A DNA stretch of 64,000 bases from NCBI RefSeq assembly GCF_900156865.1, contig NZ_LT732529.1, forward strand, positions 3,621,035 through 3,685,034. Reading direction: 5' to 3'. The translations under genes and the position numbers were made by a program. The stretch is from Litchfieldia sinesaloumensis. GTDB taxonomy: Bacteria > Bacillota > Bacilli > Bacillales > Bacillaceae_L. The notes under the pieces are model-generated. The model was not told the DNA's origin. It did no database searches and saw nothing but the letters and a program-made list of their open reading frames with translations. Positions 12,022 to 59,091 of this stretch are shown here, piece by piece (position 1 is the first letter of the stretch; the number at the start of each line of letters is the position of its first letter).

Positions 12022-12130
12022 ATGTCTAGCTTCAGCACTTCTTTTTATGTCTATGTCTTTTTTGTTATAATTATGTAATATTTGTATCTATATTGTTAGA
12101 CGAAATACATTGAGAAAGGTTTCAAAAAAA

Positions 12131-21190: not shown

Positions 21191-21209
21191 TTTATAAATA
21201 GGCAGATGG

Positions 21210-21263
21210 GTGCCTTTTGGCGTAAACCAAAGGCGAGCACTAACGGAAGGTGTTCTTTACCTT
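21210..21263 (+). other. Two hairpins in the prs-rplY interval
   Basis: Hairpin 1 (21210-21240): GTGC/GCAC outer stem and GCCTTTtGG/CCAAAGGC inner stem with loop CGTAAA. Hairpin 2 (21247-21263): AAGGT/ACCTT with loop GTTCTTT. Neither has a good T run. A short palindrome TAGACATCTGTCTA followed by T6 lies near 21310-21330 and may be the actual terminator. Confidence 0.45.
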
Positions 21264-21339
21264 GCAAAGTGATTAGGTTAGGCCAGAGAGATAATGACAT
21301 ATGAAAAACTAGACATCTGTCTATCTTTTTTAAAAAGAG

Positions 21340-53995: not shown

Positions 53996-58750
<4,755 letters not shown>

Positions 58751-58754
58751 AAAA

Positions 58755-58880
58755 AGAAAAGCGTAGGCGACTGTACTGCCTCGACAAGCGCTGGAACTTC
58801 TGACCGAAAAGTCGATAGACTTTGACAGAAGAAGTGAAGCGACCTCGAGAGGCTAGGAGCCGGAGCTAGACAAATGACTT
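58755..58880. repeat. Hairpin-rich element in the 23S-5S spacer
   Basis: A GC-richer block between 23S and 5S forms an imperfect long hairpin: CTTCTG/CAGAAG (58797-58802/58826-58831) encloses AAAGTC/GACTTT (58808-58823). The outer arms contain GCGTAGGCGACT on one side and GGAGCCGGAGCTAGAC on the other. From memory it resembles interspersed intergenic elements common in Bacillaceae. Confidence 0.5.
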
Positions 58881-58930
58881 CATGAATGTGCGTACGTTAT
58901 CTAGTTTTGAAGGAATGAATTTCCTGTTGA

Positions 58931-58951
58931 ATAATCTCGTAAAGAGATTAT
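58931..58951 (+). other. Hairpin before 5S rRNA
   Basis: ATAATCTC (58931-58938) pairs with GAGATTAT (58944-58951), loop GTAAA; probably an rRNA processing stem. Confidence 0.6.
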
Positions 58952-58975
58952 AATAGAATTTGTTCTTTAATAAAG

Positions 58976-59091
<116 letters not shown>

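Follow-up and report, generated by a model that had tools for sequence, protein, structure and literature searches.

The window, by which we mean the whole 64,000-nt stretch of Litchfieldia sinesaloumensis DNA analyzed here, comes from a genome of 4.56 Mb in three contigs (G000) and carries an rRNA operon whose 23S-5S spacer is occupied in part by a structured repeat (Table 1). The spacer covers 58752-58975 and measures 224 nt, in agreement with the length of about 225 bp given by a sequence-only reading of the window. That reading had also described the first half of the spacer as richer in GC than its surroundings, and the G+C content is indeed 53% in the element against 28% in the remaining spacer and 39.5% in the window; the boundaries that it proposed, 58755-58880, lie within 8 bases of those found. 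On the minus strand the element has sharp borders and reads 5' TGTCTAGCTCC ... GCTTTTC 3', with the start TGTCTAGCTCCGGCTCC and the end GCCTACGCTTTTC just as they had been quoted, and its sequence in the rRNA transcript is GAAAAGCG ... GGAGCTAGACA.

Table 1. Features of the window discussed in the text
Feature	Position	Strand	Evidence
5' arm of the predicted 23S processing stalk, in the 16S-23S spacer	55629..55675	+	pairs with 58876-58919
23S rRNA	55821..58751	+	RF02541, 3037 bits
Dispersed structured repeat, 117 nt	58756..58872	-	R1 model match, 90 bits, E 2.2e-20 (own rrn copies in training set)
3' arm of the predicted 23S processing stalk	58876..58919	+	pairs with 55629-55675
Promoter-like TTGAAT-16-TATAAT, outside the element, between stalk arm and 5S	58927..58954	+	consensus match 10/12
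5S rRNA	58976..59091	+	RF00001, 94.5 bits
Possible decayed second family member, weak	21195..21315	-	R1 match, 21.4 bits, E 0.0018

The hairpin of 58752-58880 exceeds chance. On the rRNA strand this segment folds with -41.9 kcal/mol (z -4.21), a stability that none of 200 shuffles equaled, and on the minus strand the fold has a z of -3.01, equaled by one of 200 shuffles. The nested stems noticed in the sequence-only reading were correctly seen and correspond, in the conserved fold, to a single long hairpin with interruptions. By its ends (TGTCTAGCT...GCTTTTC) and its covarying terminal stem the element belongs to the family described by our covariance model R1; its 90-bit score is in part so high by construction because the genome's own 23S and 16S element copies are two of the 19 R1 training sequences. 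Dispersed members show identical ends independently of the rrn copies. Elsewhere in the window, at 12024-12039, a remnant resembling the first 16 bases of the element (3 mismatches) lies upstream of a reading frame whose product, we presume, resembles RNase M5 (rnmV).

A BLASTN search of the own genome, which the sequence-only reading had proposed, was run with a 129-nt query and returned 37 matches: 12 at 98-100% identity, 3 at 88-91% over 117 nt, and 22 short ones, namely two 32-nt end matches outside rrn (E 2.7e-4) and 20 at E >1. Every full-length copy of the window's subtype detectable at the DNA level (15/15) thus lies in an rrn spacer. All 12 copies at 98-100% stand immediately 3' of a 23S end, and the element is present at 12 of the 13 23S 3' ends found, including a 54-nt fragment, and missing at C3:2008252; this proportion is approximate because the rrn regions of the assembly are irregular, with 23S ends 1-3 kb apart, one partial 23S and one truncated 5S. 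The three remaining copies stand immediately 3' of 16S. Two of them (L013 and L015) were measured: both begin 11 nt past a marker placed close to where 16S ends, and both precede the 16S stalk arm; the third appears to have the same arrangement when its sequence is read. The 16S-type and 23S-type copies are about 90% identical within the element and differ in the flanks printed for them, which is what movement of the element as a unit would produce. This genome has both filled and empty operons, exemplified by the window and by L109, respectively.

The family extends well beyond the rRNA operons. The end motif GTCTAGCTCCAGCGCC, allowing up to 3 mismatches, has 86 matches in the genome compared with 3 for the reversed control; 19 of the 86 are one unrelated 5S-type 16-mer (18 of them in a single array) and 12 are rrn copies, which leaves 55 elsewhere, some of them not element-like when read. 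The array, at C3:1671536-1676549 beside a 16S gene, holds 18 copies of the 16-mer at a spacing of 294 nt and is either a 5S array or an assembly artefact; at L103 the same 16-mer sits in 5S context. When both ends were required by a script, 34 elements were extracted, 21 of which measure 117-124 nt and the others 90-243 nt. Alignment A1 comprises 19 of these 21 (17 dispersed and two rrn elements, with two further rrn variants omitted), and its consensus fold has 14 pairs, 11 of them with two-sided changes; 92.5% of cells are paired, a value reached by none of 500 shuffles and far above slid controls. In the own genome, model R1 gave at least 77 matches at E <= 0.01 (rough E-values, 150 of 866 candidates scored), 15 in rrn and at least 62 elsewhere, and the non-rrn matches that were read have the termini and the fold of the rrn element. 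At the same threshold the model had no match in 94,686 bases of Y1-transposase loci, and at E <= 0.1 none in 9 of the 23 loci of the named-genome scan described below, eight of which are not 23S ends (the ninth is L160).

Confinement to rrn spacers, the outcome that the sequence-only reading had named as speaking against a dispersed repeat, therefore holds for the full-length blastn copies and fails for the family, with 62 of 77 R1 matches outside rrn. The resemblance to an intergenic dispersed repeat on which that reading had remarked stands, the family being mostly intergenic in its own genome and present in relatives. Among 35 of the strongest 52 dispersed matches (the 10 weakest of the 62 having been left out), 31 overlap no ORF of at least 90 aa and four overlap one, with ORFs called mechanically. 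For the 31 intergenic matches both flanking ORFs run in the direction of the element in 16 cases and against it in 7, with 8 mixed, a small excess of the former orientation over the latter. Two dispersed elements at C3:3014616-3014860 stand in tandem, 4 nt apart.

Among relatives, R1 at E <= 1e-4 has matches in 37 of 40 genomes including the own one (36/39 relatives) and in 24 of 27 genera, with numbers ranging from a single match in five genomes to at least 89 in two. A scan of named genomes for a 23S end followed by the first bases of the element yielded 23 loci, 14 of them with an R1 match, from nine organisms: Cytobacillus oceanisediminis, C. eiseniae, Mesobacillus maritimus, Neobacillus mesonae, Metabacillus bambusae, Priestia megaterium, Parageobacillus thermantarcticus and two Bacillus sp. 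Because that pattern presupposes one orientation, we also drew an orientation-unbiased sample with the 23S 3' end alone as query, which found a match in 124 of 150 genomes of the order. From the best matches, and hence not at random, 60 stretches from 39 genomes were taken, and after three were dropped as too short (two of them contig ends), 57 loci from 37 genomes remained. A spacer element (R1, E <= 0.01) is present in 22 of these loci and 16 of the 37 genomes, and 35 loci have no model match. All 27 spacer matches are located after the 23S 3' end and before a TATCTAGTTTTGA-type motif, and all are antisense to 23S; one further match, in sense orientation, lies outside the spacer. The motif, corresponding in the window to the 3' arm of the processing stalk, was located in 57 of 57 loci, a count that is partly fitted because the pattern, with its several alternatives, was written after the spacers had been viewed.

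Comparing spacers across operons, another check suggested by the sequence-only reading, revealed filled and empty operons side by side not only in G000 but also in G009 (L223 filled, L221 and L222 empty) and G097 (L245 and L247 filled, L246 empty). Two different family members stand in tandem within one 23S-5S spacer at L165, L167, L168 and L169 (Priestia megaterium) and at L230 (G013). Internally deleted remnants of 40-55 nt, matching both ends of the model, occupy the same spacer position at L154, L158, L224, L244 and L277. Plasmid records contained no match to the rrn element and, for a dispersed element, one partial match of 71.6% on a 690-kb Cytobacillus spongiae replicon.

The rrn elements themselves retain a strongly covarying fold. 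In alignment A3, which holds 23 rrn elements and leaves out near-identical, truncated and some second copies, 23 pairs are formed, 21 of them with two-sided changes; 94.5% of cells are paired, counted over sequences rather than independent events, and none of 500 shuffles reached this value. The covariation score is 0.730, against 0.230 in shuffled alignments. For 21 of the 23 rrn elements the nearest neighbor is another rrn element in a tree whose dispersed copies come from one genome only, and much of the rrn set may therefore have been inherited or converted rather than newly inserted; many rrn copies probably have a common history. Two elements are placed otherwise. In G013 the first rrn element, L229, shares 79% identity with a dispersed G000 subfamily and is placed together with that subfamily in the tree (support 1.000), and L280 is as close to dispersed elements (58%) as to any other. 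From these placements we infer that the element probably entered rRNA operons more than once.

How an rRNA operon could accommodate such an insertion is suggested by its position relative to the predicted processing stalk. With mature ends taken as Rfam boundaries and the stalk as a folding prediction, the core arms pair with -51.2 kcal/mol, compared with -15.4 +- 3.3 for 200 shuffles, the best of which reached -24.4; core arms were used because a full-length duplex fold of both spacers ran through the element. The spacer of an empty operon of the own genome, folded with the same 5' arm and with no shuffles, gave -46.2 kcal/mol; these two operons are those for which the pairing was computed, and in other genomes it was the motif that was located. 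Since only 4 nt separate the element from the 23S 3' end and 3 nt from the 3' arm, it would add a side hairpin and leave the stalk untouched. The sequence-only reading had argued that an element inside an rRNA operon must be tolerated by RNase processing, and the present result makes this more specific: the predicted stalk stays intact, the element being located after the 23S 3' end and ahead of the stalk's 3' arm, in a part of the transcript that is expected to be trimmed off, and this would account for its tolerance by the cell. In B. subtilis, maturation of 23S rRNA is catalyzed by Mini-III, and the role of RNase III in the first processing steps is described as conserved (PMC8708148). By this model the element would be removed together with the trailer.

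Farther downstream in the spacer, the promoter-like motif TTGAAT-16-TATAAT, scanned for in the window, precedes the 5S gene and a tRNA array and is perhaps a separate promoter for both. In the operons of this genome with an element-5S distance of 103-104 nt, tRNAs directly follow in 4 of 4, compared with 2 of 6 at a distance of 60 nt.

A second structured RNA is associated with the dispersed family. Among 10 element loci scanned, Bacillaceae-1 RNA (RF01690) was found within the element at 4 and next to it at 1, these five being longer dispersed members. In the own genome, the scoring of 150 among 393 candidates gave at least 37 matches to it, of which 36 exceed the cut-off. Of the 37 listed, 16 have a dispersed R1 match no more than 150 nt away, where 0.24 would be expected. 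By coordinates, one copy falls between 16S and 23S (C3:11256-11322); proximity of Bacillaceae-1 to rRNA operons has been noted earlier. The element in the window does not reach the RF01690 gathering threshold. No Rfam family attains its gathering score on the spacer, for which the full listing gives only chance matches (E >= 2), and the short element is not represented by any Rfam family. At C3:4040389-4040675 an element is accompanied by a Bacillaceae-1 module about 100 nt away.

Direct marks of transposition were also sought. Target-site duplications of 3 nt or more flank 3 of 30 dispersed elements, which is not above control (mean 1.4, maximum 4), and the two tips, TGTCTAG and GCTTTTC, do not form inverted repeats, pairing in the consensus beginning at position 7. 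The sequence TTTTC occurs within 16 nt upstream of 7 of 30 elements, compared with 2.6 in shuffles (8 of 1000 as high), and this excess is a weak lead. Separately, a reading of the minus strand as a terminator, which had it held would explain the single orientation in rrn by selection, was rejected when a scan gave 0 terminator-like sites.

We consider it likely that the element is a non-autonomous structured repeat of the MITE or BOX type which settled in a discarded rRNA trailer and spread among operons by gene conversion. In outline, a repeat of roughly 117-124 nt, from which both shorter and longer forms derive, would have spread through genomes of the window's order, moving now or in the past as a unit with fixed ends. 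Copies would have entered rRNA operons, probably repeatedly, and persisted at one kind of site, immediately downstream of the mature 3' end of an rRNA and upstream of the 3' arm of an RNase III-type stalk. There the stalk would still form and the repeat would be expected to leave with the trailer, and recombination between operons would then have rendered the copies nearly identical. A wider proposal, which is possible and which we offer only tentatively, is that order-wide (Bacillales, judging from the named relatives) modular mobile repeats, with Bacillaceae-1 as one module, repeatedly insert, always in the same direction, into excised trailers, downstream of the mature 3' end of the rRNA and upstream of the stalk arm. 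Such trailers would be a safe harbor in which the fold makes the repeat removable and therefore harmless.

The rrn copies might instead be the functional form, a conserved RNA of the trailer by which 23S maturation is guided or accelerated or the transcript protected, and the dispersed copies would then be derived from it. The very strong covariation in rrn (21 of 23 pairs), the uniform position and orientation of all 27 spacer matches and the presence of the element at 12 of 13 own 23S ends would all fit such a role. Nevertheless, we regard it as rather unlikely, given that operons without the element exist beside filled ones in G000, G009 and G097, that 35 of 57 sampled loci have no spacer match to the model, that deleted remnants persist (L154, L158, L224 and L277), and that dispersed copies covary too. 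It is more improbable still that the family consists of structured regulatory or small RNAs of the Bacillaceae-1 type spread by duplication rather than as a mobile repeat: the conserved fold and the closeness of RF01690 to dispersed R1 matches (16/37 listed vs. 0.24 expected) point in this direction, but the rrn element is unmatched by RF01690, and the copies are not uniformly oriented with respect to the genes beside them (16 with, 7 against, 8 mixed).

Mobilization as a REP element by a REP-associated tyrosine transposase (RAYT) is suggested by the small, intergenic and palindromic nature of the element and by the occurrence of Y1 transposases in 17 of 20 genomes searched, the own one included. 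We nevertheless judge it very improbable, because the 30 Y1 loci examined among 58 (the 94,686 bases mentioned above) contain no R1 match at E <= 0.01 and thus no family member flanking such a gene, and because the units are of about 120 nt rather than palindromes of 20-40 nt (21 of 34 elements measure 117-124 nt, the shortest 90 nt). An ordinary spacer hairpin of rRNA operons, unrelated to any dispersed repeat, would account for the restriction of full-length blastn matches to rrn spacers (15/15) and retains next to no probability. It is refuted by the excess of end motifs (86 vs. 3, or 55 once the unrelated 16-mer and the rrn copies are subtracted), by the reading of dispersed elements, and by the at least 62 non-rrn R1 matches, which have the same termini and fold in those read.

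The repeat joins two things that had been separate in annotation, the RF01690 family of candidate non-coding RNA on the one hand and, on the other, a dispersed repeat of which our literature search, covering few subscription journals, found no description. Many rRNA operons are naturally filled or empty, some in the same cell, and trailer tolerance and the spread of a repeat through multi-copy operons are therefore directly testable. The repeat also alters the lengths of the 23S-5S and 16S-23S spacers, which are used for typing.

Several known systems resemble the present family in part. The BOX elements of Streptococcus pneumoniae have fixed end modules and variable middle modules, fold, and lack coding capacity; judged from this description, and across different genera, they are modular, folded and non-coding as is the family described here. 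The bcr1 and MITE-type repeats are likewise small, non-coding, intergenic and folded (PMC3733652; PMC2267715), and bcr1 comes from a Bacillus group, being called B. cereus group-specific in the title of its reference. In contrast to MITE-type repeats, the present element has neither inverted repeats at its tips nor target-site duplications above control. Bhal-1 of B. halodurans, given as 74 bp (PMC2267715), might be related to it. REPs, given as 20-40 nt (PMC3733652), are also intergenic palindromic repeats, whereas the present units are of about 120 nt and occur in none of 30 Y1 loci. Intervening sequences (IVS) are extra rRNA stems of 100-200 nt that are removed by RNase III (PMC8708148), and the present element likewise forms an extra stem; however, IVS lie inside 23S and fragment it, whereas the element lies in the trailer, 4 nt beyond the 23S 3' end. 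Finally, Bacillaceae-1, which Weinberg et al. (2010; PMC2864571) list among candidate structured RNAs and not as a repeat, belongs to the same bacterial group and, although its 67-nt model does not match the short element, is a module within longer members of the repeat family.
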